Positions 8,238 through 18,995 of a stretch of DNA of 64,000 nt are shown here, piece by piece. The first letter of the stretch is position 1. Each line of letters begins with the position of its first letter. Origin of the DNA: a bacterium (GTDB lineage Bacteria > Electryoneota > RPQS01); contig JABWCQ010000016.1 of assembly GCA_013360195.1 (NCBI GenBank), positions 1 to 64,000 of the forward strand, written 5' to 3'. Both the position numbers and the translations under genes were made by a program. The notes beneath the pieces were generated by a model, which had not been told where the DNA came from, made no database searches, and saw only the letters and a list, made by a program, of their open reading frames with translations.

Positions 8238-9101
8238 ATGGACAACTTGCAAGAGAAAGAATCAAACGACGAAATCAGCAGGCTAAAGTCTGAACTTGAC
8301 GCCGTTCGTGCCCAGCTTCAGCAGACTCAGAAGCAGCTGATACACTCGGAGAAGATGGCAACCATCGGAATGCTCGTCGCCGGTGTTGCACATGAGATAA
8401 ACTCTCCGATTGGCGCGCTTGGCAGCATGCACGCGACTCTTGTAAAGGCGCTCGAACGGCTTAAGTGCAACTTGACATGCGACGGAGCTAACAGTGCGCT
8501 CTTAGATGATCCCAAGATCGCCGCGACACTCGCAATAATCGACGATGCAAATCGTGTCATCACAAACGGGACTCTGCGCGTTACCGGCATTGTGCGCCGA
8601 CTGCGAAGTTTCGCAAGAGTGGATGAAGCGGAGCGAACAATAGCGAATATTCATGACGGCATTGAAGACACGCTGACTCTGATCGAGCATGAAATTAAAC
8701 ACAATATCAAAATTGCAAAGCATTTCGGCAAAGTTCCCGATATCCTTTGCTATCCCGGACAGCTGAACCAGGTGTTCCTTAATCTTCTCGTCAACTCTCG
8801 TCAGGCAATGGAAAACGGCGGCGAAATCAGCATCACAACAGGAGTTGAAGATGGTTGCATCAGAATAGACTTCACTGATACGGGCAAGGGAATCTCGCCT
8901 GAGCACATTGAGAAGATTTTCGAACCCGGTTTCACGACCAAACAAGCGGGAGTCGGAACCGGACTTGGGCTGTTCATTGTGAAATCAATTGTTCAGGCTC
9001 ATGGCGGAACGATCCGAGTTCAGAGTGAAGTGGACAAGGGAACGACTTTCACAATAAACTTACCCATTGAGCAAAGCGAACCGAATGCCTGTTGCCAATA
9101 A
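8238..9101 (+). CDS. soluble sensor histidine kinase
   Basis: The 287-residue protein has no membrane segment. It starts with a coiled coil (residues 10-40, SRLKSELDAVRAQLQQTQK), followed by the H box AGVAHEINSP with His 52, a HisKA helix pair, and an HATPase domain with LLVNSRQAM (N box), FTDTGKGIS (G1) and GVGTGLGLFIV (G2). The coiled coil plus H box closely resembles that of the kinase at 3074-5077, so the two may be paralogues. The ATG at 8238 is preferred over an upstream TTG because the added residues look non-coding. It opens an operon whose last gene (16690) encodes a response regulator, the likely partner. No input domain is present, so it is probably controlled by binding another protein. 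Confidence 0.9.
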   Translation: MDNLQEKESNDEISRLKSELDAVRAQLQQTQKQLIHSEKMATIGMLVAGVAHEINSPIGALGSMHATLVKALERLKCNLTCDGANSALLDDPKIAATLAIIDDANRVITNGTLRVTGIVRRLRSFARVDEAERTIANIHDGIEDTLTLIEHEIKHNIKIAKHFGKVPDILCYPGQLNQVFLNLLVNSRQAMENGGEISITTGVEDGCIRIDFTDTGKGISPEHIEKIFEPGFTTKQAGVGTGLGLFIVKSIVQAHGGTIRVQSEVDKGTTFTINLPIEQSEPNACCQ

Positions 9102-10383
9102 CCGGGGAGTGCAAACTTGTGTTGGATTCAAGTTCTGGCGCGAGTTGTTTGCGTTCACACTGCTTGTTTTCGCTGCCAATAGCGCGCTTTCGGCGCCTGC
9201 TGATTCGAGTCGGAGCTTTGCAAAACCGCTGCCGTCCCGCACAGTCCTGGAACGAATCGTCTCTTTTCCTGGACAACTGGCTTATTCCCCCGTTCGTTAT
9301 ACGGTTCTCGGTCTTGGCTACGCAGGTGTCTATTTGGACGACACCGGCTTCATGCAGAGGGCAAGCAGCCTTTTCCGCCGGGCTGGCCTCCTGCCTGTCT
9401 ACGCTCCTCGAACCGGCGCCGGGCTTCGTTATACGAAAAACGATTATCTTGGCGATTCTGCGAAGCTTGTCCTGACCGCATCCTCGTGGGTAGATGCCAG
9501 ACAACTTTATTCCATCGCATGGGAAGAGATTTCGCTTGGACATGGTGTCGAATCCGGCCTGATGCTAAGATATCGCTCGCTAACTGCTGAGTCGTTCTAC
9601 GGCAAGAGTCCACGTGCAAGAGAAAGTGATAGACTTTCCTATTCGGCGGAAGACGTTTTATTCGAGTTGTCGCTGCAAAGGGATATTCATGAATTCGTCC
9701 GGGCAAGCATAGAAATCGGAATGAGTAACACCAGTGTCTTCGACGGCCGAGATCACGGTTCCCGTCCGATTTCTGACGTCTATTCTGAAAACACTTTGCC
9801 CGGATTGAAGGATGACACGCGCCTTCAAGGAACCGAGTTCCGTTTGCGATATGATGACACAAACGATTCTGCTCACCCAAGCACGGGCAGGATCGGCGTC
9901 TTCAGCGCGTCGCTTTTCAATGATATTCATAATGATGAATTAAGCTTCTGGAAAACCTCTGCTGACTTGACTCAGCATATTCATTTATTCCGCGATCGCA
10001 TTCTCGCATTGCGAAGTGCTGCGGAAATGACGCAGGGGATCGAGGGATCGGATATTCCATTCTATCATCTCGCTGAAATTGGCAGCTATGGAACAATTCG
10101 GGGATTCTCACGAGGCAGATTTCGCGACAATGACTTCTTTTTGGCATCTGCAGAGTATCGTTATCCGATTTGGATTCCGTGGCATAAAGCCGTGGATGCG
10201 GTAGTATTCGTTGATGGTGGACAAGTATCCCACGATATTATCGAAGAAGTGGCGTTGTCAGACTGGCAAATTGGATACGGAGGGGGATTTCGTTTCTACA
10301 ATACAACTGGTTTGATTGCGAAAACCGAACTTGCCTTCTCATCCGAAGCGATGCGCTTCTATTTTTCGCTGAACACCCCATGA
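9085..10383 (+). CDS. Omp85/BamA-superfamily surface-antigen-like barrel protein
   Basis: The 432-residue protein has a signal peptide (LFAFTLLVFAANSALSA) and a beta-rich body. Residues from about 240 match the C-terminal barrel of the bacterial surface antigen (D15) family: RYDDTNDSAHPSTGR, the conserved IRGFSRGRFRD block (the L6 loop that reaches into the pore) and VVFVDGGQV. No POTRA repeats are evident between the signal and the barrel, so it is a short, POTRA-poor member rather than BamA itself. The ATG at 9085 overlaps the kinase gene by 17 bases; a TTG at 9067 is the alternative. The stop overlaps the next gene (ATGA at 10380), so it is probably made together with the kinase-like lipoprotein. 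It may export or anchor that partner, which is inference. Confidence 0.8.
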   Translation: MPVANNRGVQTCVGFKFWRELFAFTLLVFAANSALSAPADSSRSFAKPLPSRTVLERIVSFPGQLAYSPVRYTVLGLGYAGVYLDDTGFMQRASSLFRRAGLLPVYAPRTGAGLRYTKNDYLGDSAKLVLTASSWVDARQLYSIAWEEISLGHGVESGLMLRYRSLTAESFYGKSPRARESDRLSYSAEDVLFELSLQRDIHEFVRASIEIGMSNTSVFDGRDHGSRPISDVYSENTLPGLKDDTRLQGTEFRLRYDDTNDSAHPSTGRIGVFSASLFNDIHNDELSFWKTSADLTQHIHLFRDRILALRSAAEMTQGIEGSDIPFYHLAEIGSYGTIRGFSRGRFRDNDFFLASAEYRYPIWIPWHKAVDAVVFVDGGQVSHDIIEEVALSDWQIGYGGGFRFYNTTGLIAKTELAFSSEAMRFYFSLNTP

Positions 10384-12050
10384 TTCTGCGAATCGGCAAC
10401 TTCATATTGATTCTGTGGTTCATCAGCATCGGTCTCGGCATTGCAGGCTGCGCCACCACAACGAGGTTTATTCCTCCGACACCATTGCCGGATGACCGCG
10501 CACACTTACCAGTGTGTCCGGAAGATACTGAGACTCATATCTTATGGGATGGTTACAAGCGGCAAATGGTTCAACCTGGAGCGGATCTCTTTGATATAAG
10601 TAGGTGGTTCAGGAAAGCCCTCGGAATTCCGAAAGAAGCGATGAATGCAGATGCCTTTGATGAAGTTAGAAACTCCAGCTGGTTTACGAACCGGAATTTT
10701 GTTGCTCCCCTTTCTCCCGCCGAAGTAGCACGCGGACCCAATACTGTCAATGGACCGGATCAATCTCAAGGCTGGACGATTATTCGCGCCAAAACTGTCG
10801 GTGTTACGCCAGGCTTTACAATTCGAGACTCGCGCGGTGACTCTTATGTCATAAAGTTTGATCCGCCCGGCAGCAGCGGCCTCAATAGTACGACCGATGT
10901 TATCGTGACAAAGTTATTGTACACCGCAGGCTACAACGTCCCGGAGAACTTTCTCGTCACTTTTGACCCCGCTATTCTAAGAATTGGTGAAAACGTCAAG
11001 TTTACTGGCAAAGATGGCAAGAATCGCGTGATGACATCGCAGGATTTGGCGGACATCCTTGCGCGAGTTGAGCTGACTCAGGACGGCAAAGTCCAAGGAA
11101 TGGCGAGTAAGTATATAGATGGAAAGCCAATTGGCCCGTTCTTGTTCAAGGGAACGAGGCACGACGATCCGAACGACATTGTGCCCCATGAACACCGGCG
11201 AGAGCTGCGTGGTATGCGCGTCATATTCGCCTGGCTCGGCCATTACGATACAAACGTCAGCAACTTTCTCGATGGCTTTGTCGAAACTGACAGTGGAAAT
11301 TACGTTCGACACTACCTTATTGACTTTGGCGCGTCACTGGGGAGCCATCCAAACGGTGCTAAGCCGGCGGATCGAGGAACCGAACCTTACATGGACCCCA
11401 TCCACATGTTGAACAAGTCACTGGAGCTCGGCTTGGTTCGCCGTCCGCGGGATTACCAGGAGGCCGTGGCGTTTCCGGAAGTCGGACGCTTTTGTTCAAG
11501 GAACTTTCATCCCAAGAGCTTCAAATTTATTTTTCCGACCCGCGCATTTGAGTATTATACTCCGCGTGATGCCTTCTGGGGGGCAAAGATTGTGGCCTCC
11601 TTTACCGAGCCGCAAGTTCGAGCCGCTGTTCAGACTGCCCATTATTCTGATAAGGCTGCCGAGGATTATCTCGTTCAAACTCTCATGGAACGGCGAGCTA
11701 TTGTGTGCCGGTATTGGTTTAACCGACTGTCGCCGCTTGATCACTTCCGACTCTCTGAAAGTGGTCTGCATTTTACGGATCTCGCGGTATCAGCCGGTCT
11801 TCAATACGACTCGCCACCGGATTACCGGTACAGAATGCACATGAATGGCCGCCAACTATCTGGTTGGCAGACCATTGGCACCGATCTGGAGATTGACAAA
11901 TCACAATTCCCCTCATTCGAGTCGTCTGACGACCAATTGACAATTGAATTGCAAGTGCGTCGAGGCGGGAGTTGGAACTCATCTGTGTTAGTTCATCTGG
12001 AACGAACTGGAGACTCGCTGGTTATCGTCGGGGTCCAGCGTAGATCATAG
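10380..12050 (+). CDS. lipoprotein with protein/PI3-4-kinase-like active-site residues
   Basis: The 556-residue protein has a lipobox (GIAGC, Cys 24), so it should be lipidated outside the cytoplasm. The middle part carries residues in the order and spacing of the protein-kinase-like fold. Lys 159 lies in SYVIKFDPP (beta-3 Lys). A hinge-like segment ASKYIDGKPIG follows at 242-252. Then come Asp 290 and Asn 295 in GHYDTNVSN (catalytic loop, D-x4-N) and Asp 315 in YLIDFGASLG (DFG). The last two resemble the DRHxxN and IDFG motifs of PI3/PI4 kinases and the HipA/FAM20-type families. No Gly-rich loop is obvious. Substrate and activity are unknown. It is translationally coupled to the Omp85-like gene and followed by two nucleotide-carrier-like genes. 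The kinase reading is inference; otherwise it is an uncharacterised lipoprotein. Confidence 0.6.
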   Translation: MILRIGNFILILWFISIGLGIAGCATTTRFIPPTPLPDDRAHLPVCPEDTETHILWDGYKRQMVQPGADLFDISRWFRKALGIPKEAMNADAFDEVRNSSWFTNRNFVAPLSPAEVARGPNTVNGPDQSQGWTIIRAKTVGVTPGFTIRDSRGDSYVIKFDPPGSSGLNSTTDVIVTKLLYTAGYNVPENFLVTFDPAILRIGENVKFTGKDGKNRVMTSQDLADILARVELTQDGKVQGMASKYIDGKPIGPFLFKGTRHDDPNDIVPHEHRRELRGMRVIFAWLGHYDTNVSNFLDGFVETDSGNYVRHYLIDFGASLGSHPNGAKPADRGTEPYMDPIHMLNKSLELGLVRRPRDYQEAVAFPEVGRFCSRNFHPKSFKFIFPTRAFEYYTPRDAFWGAKIVASFTEPQVRAAVQTAHYSDKAAEDYLVQTLMERRAIVCRYWFNRLSPLDHFRLSESGLHFTDLAVSAGLQYDSPPDYRYRMHMNGRQLSGWQTIGTDLEIDKSQFPSFESSDDQLTIELQVRRGGSWNSSVLVHLERTGDSLVIVGVQRRS

Positions 12051-12073
12051 CAGGTAACGCAAGACACTTTCGC

Positions 12074-13387
12074 GTGAACAACAACCCTTTTGGCGCAGTA
12101 CTTGATATCAGGCGAAGTGAGCTTGCTCTCGCCTTGCTCATGTTCGGCTATTTCTTTCTTGTCATAACGAGTTTCTGGATCCTCAAGCCGATTAAGAAGG
12201 CATTGTTCATTCAGTATTATGACTCTGCCGGTTTCACTATGTTCGACTGGCACATGACTGCGTCACAGGCAGAGCTTGTCGCGAAAGTTCTGAACATGGT
12301 AGTTGCCGTTCTGGCCGTCATCGTGTTTTCCTGGCTTAGTAATCGTTTCCGCCGGCAGCAATTGACGTACTGCTTTAGCGCATTCTTCCTTGCCGGATAT
12401 GCACTCTATGCGCCCCTGATCATCAGCCCATCAGACGTTACGGTCTGGACTTTTTACTTGTTTGGTGATTTGTACAGCACTCTAATGGTCGCAACTTTCT
12501 TTGTCTTCCTGAATGACAGTGTTACTCCTGCAGAAGCAAAGAGACTGTACGGCCTCATCGGGTTGGGAGGAGTTGCCGGAGGAGTCTTCGGTGCAAGCGT
12601 TGTCAGAGTGTGGATTGATGACTTGAACAGAAGCGACTGGATGTGGGTATGCTTCGCCCTTGCTACTGTAGTTTCCTTGCTGGCAATGCTGGCGGGTCGC
12701 ATTGTCGGCAGGCGCGGTGAAACCGAATCAAATTCAGAGGGCGGCAAGCCGGAAGTATCCGGCAACCCTGCGACAGAAGGCGCTCAGTTAGTTTTCAAGT
12801 CGCGCTATCTATTCTCCATAGCGGCGGTCGTTGGAATATATGAGCTTGTATCCACCCTTTTGGACTTCCAGTTCACTGCAACGATTTCGCACTATCTGGA
12901 TGGCGACGACATTGGGAGGCAGTTTTCTTTGGTCTTTGCGGTGACGAATTGGGTGTCGATGATCGTCCAGCTTTTCTTGACAAGTCTTATCATGACTCGT
13001 CTCGGATTAACTACCGCCCTGCTTGTATTGCCGATCGCCATATTCACTGGTTCGCTCGCATTTCTGATCTTGCCTGCGCTCTGGATTGGCAGTTCATTAA
13101 ACACAATCGACAATGGCTTCAGCTATTCGATAAATCAGTCGGCCAAGGAAACGCTGTACGTACCTGCTTCGACAGCCGAGAAATATAAGGCCAAAGCGTT
13201 CATTGATATGTTCATTCAGAGGTTCGCCAAGTCCCTTGCAGTCGGAGTTAGCCTCGTTGTAACCTCACTGTTTGTCGAATTTGAGAGCATTCGCTATCTC
13301 TCGCTCCTTACTATTGCCCTGGTCGCTGTTTGGATTATTGCCGTCCTCTATGCCGGTCGGCGTTTCAATGATCTCTCGGCAAGCTGA
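12074..13387 (+). CDS. Npt1/Npt2-type (ATP/ADP antiporter-like) membrane carrier
   Basis: The 437-residue protein has about 12 hydrophobic helices and no signal peptide. Features match the Npt/TLC-type nucleotide-exchange branch of MFS-like carriers. These are WILKPIKKALF in the first helices, AKRLYGLIGLGGVAGGVFGA in the middle, and INQSAKETLYVPASTAEKYKAKAFID before the last helices. In obligate intracellular bacteria such carriers swap ATP and ADP; in free-living bacteria their role is largely unknown. The GTG start at 12074 is 24 bases after the kinase-like gene. A second carrier of the same family follows, so they may work as a pair. The substrate (ATP, ADP, another nucleotide) cannot be read from the sequence. 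Confidence 0.8.
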   Translation: MNNNPFGAVLDIRRSELALALLMFGYFFLVITSFWILKPIKKALFIQYYDSAGFTMFDWHMTASQAELVAKVLNMVVAVLAVIVFSWLSNRFRRQQLTYCFSAFFLAGYALYAPLIISPSDVTVWTFYLFGDLYSTLMVATFFVFLNDSVTPAEAKRLYGLIGLGGVAGGVFGASVVRVWIDDLNRSDWMWVCFALATVVSLLAMLAGRIVGRRGETESNSEGGKPEVSGNPATEGAQLVFKSRYLFSIAAVVGIYELVSTLLDFQFTATISHYLDGDDIGRQFSLVFAVTNWVSMIVQLFLTSLIMTRLGLTTALLVLPIAIFTGSLAFLILPALWIGSSLNTIDNGFSYSINQSAKETLYVPASTAEKYKAKAFIDMFIQRFAKSLAVGVSLVVTSLFVEFESIRYLSLLTIALVAVWIIAVLYAGRRFNDLSAS

Positions 13388-13407
13388 TTCAATCCGACTA
13401 AGTATCC

Positions 13408-16227
13408 ATGGTAGTCATTTTAAGAAAGCTCTTAAATGTACGGCCCGGGGAGGAAGCTCGGACGGCGCTGATGTTTGTTTACAGCTTTCTTCTGATTGCA
13501 TCACTGACAATTGTGAAGCCGGTTCGCGCTGCGCTTTTCCTGTCTGAGCTGGGACCAGAGAAGCTGCCCTACGTCTATCTGCTGATTGCGATTGCCACTC
13601 CCGCATTTGTTGTGCTTTACAGCGGCGCCTCTAAGCGTCTTCGCTTGAACCGCCTGATCACCGCGACACTCCTTGTGTCAATCGCATTCCTGTTGCTTTT
13701 CTGGTTCGCCCTTTCGAACGGATATCATGCGCATTGGTTGATTTACTCGTTCTATGTTTGGGTTTCCGCCTTCGGTTTGATCGTAACCACACAATTTTGG
13801 CTTCTCGCTAATTACGTATTCAATGCTCGTGAAGCGAAGCGGTTGTTTGGCATTATCGGTTCCGGGGCAATTGCCGGCGGGATCCTCGGCGGCTACTTGA
13901 CGTCTACTTTTGCTCCTGCGCTTCACACACACGGCATGCTTCATCTTTGCTATTTATTCCTTGCCATGTGCCTTCTGCTCCAGTACATTGTGTGGCGATG
14001 GAGTGCGCGAATTGCATATGCCGACCGCATGAGGCGTGAAGAGCGGCAGAAGGCATTTCAGCTGGAGTCAAGTCCTTGGAGACTTCTGCTGCAATCCCGA
14101 CTCGTCGTCTATATCGGTGCGATTGCCGGTACCGGCGTCCTGGTAGGTACGCTTATCGACTATCAATTCAGTGTCGTCGCTTCCCGGTCAATAACCGGTT
14201 CTGATCAACTTGCTTCATTCTTCGGATTCTGGCTTTCAAACCTGAGTATTGTCTCGCTTCTCTTTCAGGTCTTTGTAACCGGTTTTTTACTGAAGAGGTA
14301 CGGAGTAAACACGTCGTTAATGTTCCTGCCTGCATTAGTAACTGCCGGCTCGGCAACCGCGGTGCTGTTCCCAACGCTCTGGGCGGCGACCTCCTTGAAA
14401 GTTGGTGAAGGAGGCTTGAAACAGTCTTTGCACAAGTCAGCTCTTGAATTACTTGGATTGCCGGTGCCTGCCAGGCTGAAAAATCAGGTTAAGGCGTTGA
14501 TTGATGTCGCTGTTGACAACTTTGCAACAGGTCTGGCCGGATTGGTTATCCTGCTTCTTGTAGTGATTGGACTTGCCGATGTTCGTACTCTTGGAATTGT
14601 AATCCTCGTGTTTGCGGCATTGTGGATCGTATTGGTGGCCCGCACCAAATCAGAGTACTTGGACGCGTTTCGCCAGGCGATTGAAAGACGCACGATACGG
14701 CCGGAGGACATTTCCTATGAGATCTATTCCTCCATGCGTGCGGATCAGCTGATCGAGTTGCTTGGAGGAACGAACGATAGACAGATCTTGATGGCTCTAA
14801 GTTACCTGGAGAACATGAGAGATGCTCGCTTGCCGTTTCATCTTGAGCGCCTTCTGGATTCCTCTTCTTCTGATGTTCTCCGGTCTGTGTATCGTATTGC
14901 CCGGTCGCTTCCGGATGTTGATCTTTCTTTGAGAGCGCATAAGCATCTGTATCATAATCACCCTGCCGTGCGTGTAGCTGCAACAAGATATCTGCTTCGG
15001 CGGTCTGATGATAAGCAGGCGATGACGGAGGCTTTCTTGAGCGCTGAGAGTGATATGGTTAGGGCTGCGGCCATCGTGGCGGCGGCGAGGGAGTGGGTCG
15101 GAGACGGCGGGTTTAATGCTAGTGTAGATTTCAAGCGCCTGCTTGAGGATTTGTGCCGTCAGATAAGCATGAATCCGGCAGATTTAACTGTAACAAAGGC
15201 GCTGGCGGAAGCGTTAAGCATTGCTCCTCAACCGGAGCTGGAAGACTGTACTAAGACTCTCCTTCGTGCGAGTTCTCCGGATATAGTCGCATTTGCCGCA
15301 CTTAGTGCGGGCAGGTCCGGTAATACCGGATTCCTCGATACTCTATTGCCGCATTTGGAGAATAGACAGCTACGGCAAAGGATTCGCGAGGCAATCGCAG
15401 GCTACGGTGACCTGGTTTCCGAACGGCTTGCCTTTCTGCTTAATGACGGCGACTGCAAATATAGTATCAGACTGGAGATCCCAAGAATTCTATTCATGAT
15501 TGGGACAGATAAGAGCTTTACGTTGCTCTCCGATAGTCTCAACATCAGGAATGCGCGCTTGCGATTCGAAGTGCTGAGATCGCTGAACAAAATGAGGAGC
15601 CGCGACGCCCGCTTTCGGTTGAAATCGAAAATTCTCATGCCAGTTGTTTGGAATGAGATCGGGAACTACTATCGTCTCCTGCAAGTACATAATTGTGTGG
15701 ATGGAAACGCGTTGCAATCCTCCCTCCCGGAACCCGACCCGGATACTATCGCCTTCCGGATGCTACTGAAACGCGCCGTAGAAGAGCGATTAGCCGACAG
15801 TTTGGAGCGCGTTTTTCGATTGCTTGGCTTGAGACATTCACCGAAGGATATGTATCATGCGTACCTCTGCATCAGCGGAAGTGCGCCTGACCAGCGCGCG
15901 AATGCGATTGAGTTGCTTGAGCTTGTTATCAGACCGCAGGTCTACTCGGTTTTAGCGCCAATAATTGAGTACTCGTCTCCTGCCGATCTAGCCGAACTTG
16001 GGAAGCGCGTTTTTGGAATACACATTACCTCGGAAGGCGAGGCGCTCTCAGCACTGCTTCAAGGTGATGACGATTGGCTTCGAGCTGTTGCGTTGCACGT
16101 CTGCCGAAGATCTTTGGACCTCAGTTGTGAAATGGATGTCTCCGAATTCGAAACTCACGGTCACTTTATGGTGCGGGAGGCAGCACTCAGGAATCGTGAA
16201 AATTCTGCTTTGACGGCGATTCGGTGA
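13408..16227 (+). CDS. Npt-type carrier fused to a long HEAT-repeat domain
   Basis: Residues 1 to about 415 of 939 form a second Npt1/Npt2-like carrier, with SLTIVKPVRAALFLSE, AKRLFGIIGSGAIAGGILGG and LHKSALELLGLPVPARLKNQVKALID aligning with the previous gene. Residues from about 440 onward are helical repeats of HEAT type (IRPEDISYEIYSSMRADQL then many paired helices such as HPAVRVAATRYLL and SDMVRAAAIVAAAREW). They lie on the cytoplasmic side if the carrier has 12 helices. The tail probably serves as a docking or regulatory scaffold. The next gene is a lone cyclic-nucleotide-binding domain only 10 bases on, which could sit on this tail. The gene follows the first carrier by 20 bases. Confidence 0.85.
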   Translation: MVVILRKLLNVRPGEEARTALMFVYSFLLIASLTIVKPVRAALFLSELGPEKLPYVYLLIAIATPAFVVLYSGASKRLRLNRLITATLLVSIAFLLLFWFALSNGYHAHWLIYSFYVWVSAFGLIVTTQFWLLANYVFNAREAKRLFGIIGSGAIAGGILGGYLTSTFAPALHTHGMLHLCYLFLAMCLLLQYIVWRWSARIAYADRMRREERQKAFQLESSPWRLLLQSRLVVYIGAIAGTGVLVGTLIDYQFSVVASRSITGSDQLASFFGFWLSNLSIVSLLFQVFVTGFLLKRYGVNTSLMFLPALVTAGSATAVLFPTLWAATSLKVGEGGLKQSLHKSALELLGLPVPARLKNQVKALIDVAVDNFATGLAGLVILLLVVIGLADVRTLGIVILVFAALWIVLVARTKSEYLDAFRQAIERRTIRPEDISYEIYSSMRADQLIELLGGTNDRQILMALSYLENMRDARLPFHLERLLDSSSSDVLRSVYRIARSLPDVDLSLRAHKHLYHNHPAVRVAATRYLLRRSDDKQAMTEAFLSAESDMVRAAAIVAAAREWVGDGGFNASVDFKRLLEDLCRQISMNPADLTVTKALAEALSIAPQPELEDCTKTLLRASSPDIVAFAALSAGRSGNTGFLDTLLPHLENRQLRQRIREAIAGYGDLVSERLAFLLNDGDCKYSIRLEIPRILFMIGTDKSFTLLSDSLNIRNARLRFEVLRSLNKMRSRDARFRLKSKILMPVVWNEIGNYYRLLQVHNCVDGNALQSSLPEPDPDTIAFRMLLKRAVEERLADSLERVFRLLGLRHSPKDMYHAYLCISGSAPDQRANAIELLELVIRPQVYSVLAPIIEYSSPADLAELGKRVFGIHITSEGEALSALLQGDDDWLRAVALHVCRRSLDLSCEMDVSEFETHGHFMVREAALRNRENSALTAIR

Positions 16228-16237
16228 GGTTCACTAA

Positions 16238-16651
16238 ATGATTACAACAGTTGAAAAGGTTGTCTTTCTTCAGGACATTGATCTCTTCGCTCGTATTCCT
16301 TTGGAGGATCTTGCCTACATTGCTATGATTGCCGAGGAACAAAATCTGCAAGCGGGTACCGTCATCTATTCTGAAGGGGATGTATCGGATTCGATGTACC
16401 TGGTTCTTGATGGCGCTGTGCGCCTGCACAGAGGCGGCGCGGACGTTATGATCGCGAAGGCACGGGATGCATTCGGGACATGGGCGCTGTTCGATAATGA
16501 AAGAAGAATTGTTACCGCCACAGTACTGGAAGATTGCGCGGTCTTGAGAATTGGGAAGGATGACTTCCTTGATCTCTTGTCTGATCATTCCAGGATTTCT
16601 GAAGGGATTTTGAAGGTAATGGCCGCCAAGCTGCGAAGCTTGGTTGGTTAG
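16238..16651 (+). CDS. single-domain cyclic-nucleotide-binding protein
   Basis: The 137-residue protein is essentially one CRP-type cyclic-nucleotide-binding beta-roll: LFARIPLEDLAYIAMIAEE at the start, GTVIYSEGDVSDSMYLVLDG (conserved Gly turns), and DAFGTWALFDNERRIVTATV where CRP has the phosphate-binding cassette FGExALxxxxxRxAT. The usual Glu after FG is Thr here, so ligand binding may be altered. There is no DNA-binding helix-turn-helix and no kinase or channel domain. A ribosome site (GAGG) lies 8 bases before the ATG. It sits between the HEAT-tailed carrier and the response regulator and probably acts as a regulatory subunit of the carrier. Confidence 0.9.
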   Translation: MITTVEKVVFLQDIDLFARIPLEDLAYIAMIAEEQNLQAGTVIYSEGDVSDSMYLVLDGAVRLHRGGADVMIAKARDAFGTWALFDNERRIVTATVLEDCAVLRIGKDDFLDLLSDHSRISEGILKVMAAKLRSLVG

Positions 16652-16689
16652 AAATCATTTCGCATTTGCTGCTTAGTAACGGAGAATAC

Positions 16690-17175
16690 ATGTCTGAGAA
16701 AACCAATCCGCAAATTATTGTACTTGTCGACGATGAAGAAATGGTGCTCACCAGCATTCGGTCTTTAATTGATCTCGAAACTGATTACACTTGTGTTCCG
16801 TTTCGCTCTGCTTCGCAGGCGCTTGAATTCATTGCTTCATCCACTGATATTAGTTTGGTCGTGTCCGATTTCCTTATGCCGGAAATGGATGGAATCTCCT
16901 TTCTCGCAAAAGTGCGGCAGCTGCGTCCCGATGTTCCCAGAATCCTGCTGACGGGCTATGCGGATAAGGAGAATGCGATCAAAGCAATAAATGAAGTAGG
17001 TTTGTTTCAGTATATCGAAAAACCCTGGGATAACAGCGACTTGCTGCTGATTTTCAGGAATGGACTGGAGAAGAGGCAGTTGATGAGGAAATTGCAGGAG
17101 AAAATTGATGAGATTAACAAGGCCTACAGCGATCTTGACTCGCTGCATCGTGAGATTGTAAAGGCTTTTGTATGA
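16690..17175 (+). CDS. response regulator, receiver domain with short coiled-coil tail
   Basis: This 161-residue protein has all receiver landmarks: acidic pair Asp 14/Asp 15, phosphoacceptor Asp 60 (VVSDFLMPEMDG), Thr 88 (ILLTGYAD) and Lys 111 (YIEKPW). The last 40 residues (RKLQEKIDEINKAYSDLD) form a coiled coil. No DNA-binding or enzyme domain follows, so output is probably by protein contact. The start at 16690 has GGAG 7 bases upstream; an ATG-less extension is rejected. As last gene of the operon opened by the soluble kinase at 8238, it is the natural phosphorylation target. A strong terminator follows at 17214. Confidence 0.93.
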   Translation: MSEKTNPQIIVLVDDEEMVLTSIRSLIDLETDYTCVPFRSASQALEFIASSTDISLVVSDFLMPEMDGISFLAKVRQLRPDVPRILLTGYADKENAIKAINEVGLFQYIEKPWDNSDLLLIFRNGLEKRQLMRKLQEKIDEINKAYSDLDSLHREIVKAFV

Positions 17176-17261: not shown

Positions 17262-18455
17262 TCAGCAACCGCCGGTAATCTTCCTGGGTTTCTTGTCGGG
17301 TTCTTTTGGCCTGTCTCGTTGCGCTTCAATCATGGCATGAATTGCTGTGCCCGCTTCTTGCCGGAATTCCCGTACAACTGAGTTTACACTGTCCTGTCTC
17401 AATACCGCGCCTTCCCTGTTAAGAATCAGACTTCGGAAATGCGGTAGCCCCCCCTCAAGCACGGAAAGATTGCGATAACCGATTTCGTCAAGGACATGGT
17501 ACGCTATTACTGCATCTTGTTCGTTCTCTGCAACTAATATCTTGCGGACGTGCCGGCGGGCGAACAGGGTGTTCCATTCCTTGCTGAATAACTCGTGAAT
17601 CTGCAGATTGACAGATCCCGGCAATGAGAATTGATTATATGCCAACGAGTCGCTGACATCGACAATCTGCATACTCGGGTCTTTGTCAACGATTCGAAAC
17701 GCAAGCTCGTCTGAACTCATGTAACTGGTTTCGCAGGCCTCAAGGTGCTCCAATGAGGAAGCCATGGCAATTGTTCTCGACTTTCGATCCGGAAGCGATA
17801 TAAAAACTGCACCCGCGAATATTGTCACAACTGCAACGGTCAAGTGCTTTCTGAATCTGAAGTTGTTCGCGGGAGCTTGCCGATTCACTCGCTTCTCGAT
17901 CCGGCTGGTTACGGCAAAAGCAGACACCGCTACGACAATCAGCGCAAAGGCAAACCATCCCGCCGGAAGGCCAAGCGAATCGTACACTTTCACCGGACCG
18001 AGTGCTGAGGATTCGTGGAATCTCTCCCAGGCCGGAAACATCTCCGCAAAGAATAACACACCGATGAACAGTCCGCCGACAAAGAAGAGCGCGTCGATTT
18101 TCCCGATTGCCGCAGCGCAAATGCTTGTGCCTGGGCAGTAGCCGCCAAGGATAAACCCAACGCCCATAATGGCTCCGCCGACTATAGCAGGCCAAAGCCA
18201 CAGTGGATTTATGTATATGGCCTCCGTATCCAAGAGCCCGAAAAAATTGAGCAGCATTATCCCGCCCATAGCCGTGACGGCGGCGGAAAAGAATACTCTC
18301 AACACTGTGAAATCGTACCCGTAAAAGACTCCTGCGAGCTTTCGCGACGAGGAGAAACCGGCCTGCTCGAGCACAAAACCAAAGGCAATTCCGATAATCA
18401 GCGCGATAACAAAATTCAGTTCCGGAGAAATCGGATCAGGTACAAATGGTCCCAT
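17262..18455 (-). CDS. YeeE/YedE-family sulfur transporter with rhodanese-like C-terminal domain ending in GGC
   Basis: The 397-residue protein starts with a YeeE/YedE half of about five helices, with the family Cys motif GGYCPGTS near residue 110. Another helix follows near 210-225. Residues from about 240 form a rhodanese-like domain (MQIVDVSDSLAYNQFSLPGSVNL). The position of the catalytic Cys loop reads VAENEQDAV, so no persulfide can form there. The chain ends in ITGGC, a lone C-terminal Cys after two Gly, like the sulfur-carrier arm of SoxY (GGCGG). YeeE proteins are linked to thiosulfate or sulfur-species uptake. It is the last gene of the octaheme cytochrome operon, 18 bases after its YeeE partner. 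Confidence 0.85.
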   Translation of the reverse strand: MGPFVPDPISPELNFVIALIIGIAFGFVLEQAGFSSSRKLAGVFYGYDFTVLRVFFSAAVTAMGGIMLLNFFGLLDTEAIYINPLWLWPAIVGGAIMGVGFILGGYCPGTSICAAAIGKIDALFFVGGLFIGVLFFAEMFPAWERFHESSALGPVKVYDSLGLPAGWFAFALIVVAVSAFAVTSRIEKRVNRQAPANNFRFRKHLTVAVVTIFAGAVFISLPDRKSRTIAMASSLEHLEACETSYMSSDELAFRIVDKDPSMQIVDVSDSLAYNQFSLPGSVNLQIHELFSKEWNTLFARRHVRKILVAENEQDAVIAYHVLDEIGYRNLSVLEGGLPHFRSLILNREGAVLRQDSVNSVVREFRQEAGTAIHAMIEAQRDRPKEPDKKPRKITGGC

Positions 18456-18473
18456 TCTGCTTACTCCTGCTCC

Positions 18474-18995
18474 TTAGATCCAAAGTCTGCGAAAAAGGTA
18501 TGCGACTGCGTAGCCAGTTCCGAAAATCGCGAGCATTGTTATGAATCCAGCTGAGGACAGTACGGCCATACCACTAAGCGCCGCGCCGCTTGTGCAGCCG
18601 CGCGCAAACTGTGCGCCGATACCAAACAGTGCTCCGCCGGCAGCCGCAAATGCCCATCTAGTCTTGTTTGCAATGAATGGGCCGCCTTCGCTCTTAAATG
18701 AAAGGCGATCGGAGACCAGACCGGACAGAAACGCGCCTATGAGTACTCCCGCAAGTTCAAAAACCAGCCAGGATTTCATCGGGTTCTCCCGTTCTGCATT
18801 CATGTACGGCCCGTAATATGGCGATTCTGCGGCGTGATCCGGCGCCACTTTGCCAACAACCGCGATAACTGTGTCCTTTATCGCGCCGCTCGCGCCGAGT
18901 CCGCGACCGGTTACGAATATGCTCACAAGCAGTACTGCACCTAGTAGGAATCCGGCAAGATACGGATTCATATATTTCGTGGAAACCTGGTTCAT
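18474..18995 (-). CDS. YeeE/YedE-family membrane protein
   Basis: The 173-residue protein has about four membrane helices and the family motif FARGCTSGAALSG with a conserved Cys, typical of one half of the split YeeE/YedE (PmpA/PmpB-like) pairs. Together with the downstream gene it would form a complete sulfur-compound channel. The ATG overlaps the cytochrome b stop (ATGA at 18992-18995). Known relatives move thiosulfate or sulfur species through a relay of Cys residues; which species is moved here is not shown. Confidence 0.88.
   Translation of the reverse strand: MNQVSTKYMNPYLAGFLLGAVLLVSIFVTGRGLGASGAIKDTVIAVVGKVAPDHAAESPYYGPYMNAERENPMKSWLVFELAGVLIGAFLSGLVSDRLSFKSEGGPFIANKTRWAFAAAGGALFGIGAQFARGCTSGAALSGMAVLSSAGFITMLAIFGTGYAVAYLFRRLWI

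Follow-up and report, generated by a model that had tools for sequence, protein, structure and literature searches.

An operon pairing an exported kinase-like lipoprotein with NTT-type carriers may support phosphorylation in the bacterial envelope

Described systems closest to the operon

ATP is usually assumed to be absent from the bacterial periplasm, so that ATP-dependent kinases would not be expected to function there. The animal secretory-pathway kinases Fam20A, Fam20B and Fam20C have a kinase-like fold, act outside the cytosol and depend on nucleotide brought across a membrane, and the exported kinase-like lipoprotein described here, which we refer to as LIPOK (see Table 1), is predicted to resemble them in this. 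LIPOK differs from them in being bacterial, exported and often lipid-anchored, and in having DFG and HxDxKxxN motifs with no detectable sequence similarity. HipA-like and CotH-like kinases are linked to LIPOK by HipA_2 matches in 5/51 of its relatives, all weak and below the Pfam cut-off (best E = 0.004), and we know of no operon in these families that combines export with a carrier; a designation of LIPOK as a HipA kinase was rejected, as no relative reaches the Pfam HipA cut-off. The barrel encoded beside LIPOK shares PF01103 and a 16-strand architecture with BamA and TamA of the Omp85 superfamily. Unlike the Omp85 assembly and secretion factors it has no POTRA domains, and its neighbour is an exported kinase-like protein and not an assembly factor. 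Fused small Omp85-superfamily barrels, such as PlpD, also exist.

The two carriers of the operon are related to the NTT/Npt/TLC antiporters of plastids, Chlamydia and Rickettsia, with carrier 1 a member of the family and carrier 2 passing the Pfam cut-off. The NTTs that have been characterised bring nucleotides into parasites and plastids, unlike the export proposed here, and most NTT diversity is uncharacterised (PMC5381601). NTT-HEAT and NTT-HEAT-cNBD proteins, as well as an NTT-HEAT + cNBD gene pair, have been reported in free-living bacteria where their role is open (Major et al. 2017, PMC5381601), and that paper makes no mention of a kinase, export or the periplasm. While these carriers are already known, our searches of an open-access library for this gene set or module, for the kinase families or for a bacterial Fam20 returned nothing relevant, in agreement with a first-pass annotation, made from the sequence alone, to which no described system of this kind was known.

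The seven-gene operon and its products

The window, by which we mean the whole 64,000-nucleotide stretch that was analysed, is part of a 122-kb contig from a 3.2 Mb genome that is 96% complete; searching the window for Rfam families and tRNA genes gave no matches. The operon consists of seven ORFs, all on the + strand (8238–17175), with intergenic gaps of 23, 20, 10 and 38 bases (none longer) and two overlaps (HK/Omp85 and Omp85/LIPOK), and has opposite-strand genes on both flanks. This bears out the compact, co-directional arrangement first annotated, and the Pfam matches (HATPase_c, Omp85, TLC in two ORFs, HEAT_2, cNMP_binding and Response_reg) uphold the accompanying domain calls of a histidine kinase (HK), an Omp85 protein, two Npt/TLC carriers with HEAT repeats in one, a cyclic-nucleotide (cNMP) domain and a receiver. 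Convergent with the operon end are two YeeE/YedE-like membrane proteins (17262–18995, - strand; read from sequence only), one of which has a rhodanese-like tail.

Table 1. Features of the operon, with window coordinates and the evidence for each.
Feature	Position	Strand	Evidence
Histidine kinase (HK), 287 aa, soluble	8238..9101	+	HATPase_c 3.7e-28; H-box VAHEINSP seen in sequence
Omp85-superfamily outer-membrane barrel, no POTRA	9067..10383	+	PF01103 1.1e-24; AF2 model
LIPOK, exported kinase-like lipoprotein, 556 aa, lipobox IAGC	10380..12050	+	Conservation, AF2, Foldseek
LIPOK Lys159 codon, beta-3 lysine equivalent (YVIKFDP)	10854..10856	+	K in 51/51 relatives; model strand 155-160
LIPOK catalytic-loop-like motif D290...N295 (HYDTNVSN)	11247..11264	+	D and N in 51/51
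LIPOK DFG-like motif D315-F316-G317	11322..11330	+	D 51/51, F 49/51, G 50/51
NTT/TLC carrier 1, 437 aa; K71, D132, D264, K386 kept	12074..13387	+	PF03219 1.3e-24
NTT-HEAT carrier 2, 939 aa; MFS/NTT domain and C-terminal HEAT repeats	13408..16227	+	PF03219 22.9 bits; HEAT_2 8.3e-10
Stand-alone cyclic-nucleotide-binding (cNMP) domain protein, 137 aa	16238..16651	+	PF00027 2e-18
Single-domain response regulator (receiver), 161 aa; C-terminal coiled-coil-like tail	16690..17175	+	PF00072 1.8e-22

LIPOK has no family match in Pfam or NCBIfam. When an AlphaFold2 (AF2) model built from 51 aligned sequences (pLDDT 93.4, pTM 0.92) was compared with the PDB using Foldseek, all nine matches with E <= 0.001 were to Fam20A or Fam20C (best 1.5e-4), followed by weaker matches to Rio, alpha-kinase, aminoglycoside phosphotransferase-like, PKA and PI3K entries and to SidJ, with Foldseek probabilities against kinases of up to 1.00. 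On this model LIPOK has a protein-kinase-like fold, as its kinase-like residues had led the first-pass annotation to expect. However, the TM-scores are low (0.20–0.30 on the query), and the kinship is therefore at the level of the fold and not one of membership of the Fam20 family. A profile search of the PDB with the LIPOK family returned chance matches only, with no significant similarity to any solved kinase and no Fam20 match, and Pfam Fam20C has no match in LIPOK or its relatives; as there is no detectable sequence homology, we say that LIPOK would work like a Fam20 and not that it is one. The four residues picked out earlier, Lys159, Asp290, Asn295 and Asp315, proved invariant in 11 relatives at first and then in 51/51. 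The consensus motifs of the family are IKFDP, HxDxKxxN and LIDFG, with HxDxKxxN found in most relatives and HYDTNVSN in the window. A hydrophobic N-terminal export signal is present in essentially all relatives and a strict lipobox in about half. Apparent fusions of LIPOK to Omp85 or to carriers were discounted, as these long ORFs contain the kinase domain only and look like too-early starts in GC-rich genomes.

The Omp85 gene (PF01103, 88 bits against a cut-off of 24) has an ambiguous start at TTG 9067 or ATG 9085. The AF2 model of its product (pLDDT 85.9) has about 16 strands following N-terminal helices, with no POTRA fold ahead of the barrel, and the nearest solved folds are the BamA and TamA barrels. 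Such a POTRA-less barrel may expose or anchor LIPOK.

Carrier 1 (PF03219, 87.4 bits against a cut-off of 21) is assigned by sequence to the NTT/TLC family, and its family profile matches the solved plant NTT1 with E = 2.7e-18. We take K155, E245, E385 and K527 to be the essential residues of plant NTT1, and equated positions 71/161/301/443 of chain 9j3j (K/E/E/K) to these by a constant offset. The carrier 1 equivalents, K71, D132, D264 and K386, are invariant in the close family (in the profile alignment K71 is shifted by one column), so that the charges at the four sites are K, D, D and K, and the K-x-K-A-x-I-D signature is also kept. Carrier 2 clears the same PF03219 cut-off of 21 with 22.9 bits, and the NTT-HEAT family profile matches NTT structures with E = 2.2e-16, but the family keeps one of the four charged residues (the D264 equivalent) and has lost three; ATP/ADP therefore cannot be assumed as its substrate, and the HEAT carrier may be regulatory. 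The original view that both carriers are of the nucleotide type thus fits carrier 1, with four charge equivalents, better than the HEAT carrier, with one.

The window HK has no sensor domain of its own, and its relatives carry PAS/GAF, 7TMR-DISM or receiver domains. A cNMP domain and an NTT-HEAT carrier occur in one ORF in three other loci (L127, L128 and L142) and such fusions have been reported before (PMC5381601), which suggests that the lone cNMP protein of the window acts on the HEAT carrier as its probable partner. In two loci, SpoIIE-type phosphatases with FHA and GAF domains are encoded downstream of NTT-HEAT genes (L131:15794-17479 and L137:9747-11465), which hints at a further partner that regulates the carriers.

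Distribution of LIPOK and of other exported enzymes beside the carriers

A plain protein query of genome contigs with LIPOK found no relatives and an alignment query found 139, on contigs named as Acidobacteriota, Gemmatimonadota, Zixibacteria, Latescibacterota, Calditrichota, KSB1, Myxococcota, Bacteroidota and others, with host genomes of about 2–9 Mb that are not reduced. The recurrent gene order is HK, Omp85, LIPOK, [metallophosphoesterase lipoprotein], carrier 1, NTT-HEAT, cNMP protein and receiver. In most related genomes the operon includes the metallophosphoesterase lipoprotein gene (PF00149), which the window's operon lacks and for which a search of the window's genome, where there was no positive control, gave no match.

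The LIPOK gene had been proposed to go with the carriers, and it is mostly found with them. Omp85 lies directly upstream of LIPOK relatives in 62/69 evaluable loci, a carrier is found within 10 kb in 32/43 loci with full flanks, and an NTT carrier is present somewhere in 47/49 LIPOK-bearing genomes from many phyla. Among the 39 genomes of the window's own phylum, LIPOK occurs in 10 and carriers in eight, all eight carrier genomes having LIPOK (Fisher 7e-7), and a genome of the same genus as the window's has neither. Carriers are likewise present in 36/41 LIPOK genomes versus 40/206 others (Fisher 7e-17) in a sample of 247 genomes from the phylum of one Acidobacteriota locus (the Acidobacteriota sample), and 18/49 LIPOK genes have a carrier no more than 12 kb away, against about 1% expected by chance. 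These genome-level P values ignore phylogeny and are inflated by shared ancestry, and operon adjacency is the stronger evidence. A carrier-only search of the phylum of a Bacteroidota locus found Omp85–LIPOK–carrier loci in 6/19 further carrier genomes; in the other 13, no kinase of this type was seen in the sequence read around the carrier.

An exported kinase fold is not always paired with a carrier, as a shorter exported kinase-like family with the same residues, related to LIPOK at E of about 1e-13 to 1e-17, has members in 13 Acidobacteriota-sample genomes in which an NTT search found none. These proteins of about 330–350 aa (loci L147-L153, e.g. L149:1831-2880 and L148:2124-3143) have the Lys, Asp, Asn and DxG motifs and no Pfam match above cut-off, and in L151 the gene comes after an Omp85 gene; the majority of the genomes with these loci lack an NTT.

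We read 20 carrier loci in LIPOK-negative genomes of the Acidobacteriota sample, and these contained a second exported family of about 280 aa that is absent from the window (KIN2; 12 loci) and an exported metallophosphoesterase (10 loci), the two sometimes being fused (L128, L138, L141 and L143). The KIN2 profile matches Fam20A (E = 3e-11), FAM20C (2.5e-9) and a Fam20-type GAG xylosylkinase (1.6e-8), with the top matches spanning two segments, and by sequence homology KIN2 is assigned to the Fam20 family, so that Fam20A and Fam20C are sequence matches for KIN2 and top fold matches for LIPOK. KIN2 and LIPOK have no significant sequence homology to each other and were treated as separate families. 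The metallophosphoesterase, an exported PPP-type phosphatase that is fused to KIN2 or lies next to it in several carrier loci, matches the solved protein-tyrosine-phosphatase / psychrophilic phosphatase I structures at 2e-31. KIN2 is found in 45/247 genomes of the Acidobacteriota sample, with NTTs in 45/45 of these versus 31/202 without KIN2, and 37/107 KIN2 genes are within 12 kb of a carrier (chance about 1%); carriers with neither exported kinase family account for 15/76 carrier genomes in the sample. KIN2 was not found in a search of the window's phylum, and a Myxococcota sample gave remote matches only, save in one genome. In tandem KIN2 clusters, one copy has lost the DR-motif Asp expected to be catalytic (L131:7971-8819, -; L136:5172-5996, -; L139:12966-13781, +), and from its sequence resembles a pseudokinase next to paralogues that look active, much as in the Fam20A/Fam20C pair.

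Five Bacteroidota loci (L180, L181, L183, L185 and L190) have an exported protein of about 970 aa flanking NTT-HEAT, and the two tested are related to proteins with the PPDK AMP/ATP-binding domain (PPDK_N). Two exported beta-lactamase2-fold proteins also flank NTT-HEAT in each. In another locus, an exported metallophosphoesterase–Omp85 barrel fusion is encoded directly downstream of a carrier-1-type NTT gene (L178:10696-14457, +). The presence of several unlike exported phosphotransferases beside one carrier family would be difficult to account for if the carrier had no part in nucleotide chemistry outside the cytoplasm. The phosphatase partner, KIN2 and the PPDK-like proteins, which the first-pass annotation had missed, strengthen the core idea of envelope phosphorylation.

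Proposed nucleotide supply to the envelope

Our preferred reading, to which we give a probability of roughly 0.6, is a module for phosphorylation in the envelope that receives its nucleotide through antiport. It builds on gene content, conservation, export signals, a predicted kinase fold and genomic linkage, all observed or computed, from which we infer catalysis, ATP as the donor, the direction of export, what the barrel and the regulators do, and the target. Membrane-anchored LIPOK, with its Fam20-like fold, would act in the periplasm or at the cell surface, presented or anchored by the small Omp85 barrel next to it. The inner-membrane NTT carrier or carriers would move cytoplasmic ATP out and kinase-released ADP in, driven by the high internal ATP of respiring cells, with the net effect that phosphoryl groups leave the cell and the adenine nucleotide is recycled. 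The target could be a protein, glycan or lipid, and the mark may be reversible, with the exported metallophosphoesterase of the relatives probably removing it. Gating of carrier activity or expression might fall to the HK/receiver pair and to the cNMP protein, the latter through the HEAT domain of carrier 2.

One alternative keeps the carriers as suppliers of nucleotide and has the exported kinase-fold protein use ATP for AMPylation, glutamylation or nucleotide sensing. SelO and SidJ are protein-kinase-like proteins with such other chemistry (PMC10870513) and SidJ is among the weaker fold matches of LIPOK, but we consider this improbable as the residues canonical for phosphotransfer do not vary, phosphotransferases provide the nearest folds and the phosphatase partners best fit phosphorylation. 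Scavenging of nucleotide or phosphate, in which nucleotides would enter through the barrel, be trimmed by the phosphoesterase and be taken in by the carriers, with LIPOK as a binding or salvage part, would agree with the import by characterised NTTs into parasites and plastids (PMC5381601) and with the frequent metallophosphoesterase. We rate it no higher, since it leaves unexplained both the invariant catalytic residues of an exported kinase fold and the recurrence of unlike exported phosphotransferase families beside the carriers, and the host genomes have not undergone reduction.

It is slightly less likely again that the carriers, or at least the HEAT one, move other substrates or act as sensors, with a regulatory or historical link to the kinase. 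Carrier 2 is without most of the charged NTT residues, many genomes have NTT-HEAT and none of these kinases, and little of NTT diversity has been characterised (PMC5381601); set against this are the charged residues and signature retained by carrier 1 and the near-perfect co-occurrence with two exported kinase families.

The recurrence of the pairing across many bacterial phyla suggests that in some free-living bacteria nucleotide may leave the cytoplasm to serve phosphorylation of envelope targets. The wider proposal, that in many free-living bacteria NTT antiporters pump ATP out against spent ADP and feed LIPOK, Fam20-like kinase-phosphatases and PPDK-like dikinases alike, we regard as evenly balanced. 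A widely conserved module of an exported kinase and an ATP/ADP-type antiporter would change the view of the periplasm as free of ATP, and would give a function to the NTT carriers of free-living bacteria, whose role has been open since 2017. If this is true, these carriers have a role opposite to energy parasitism and the module is a bacterial counterpart of phosphorylation in the Golgi lumen. With it would come bacterial models for phosphorylation of the Fam20 type in the secretory pathway, and hints at how this arose.
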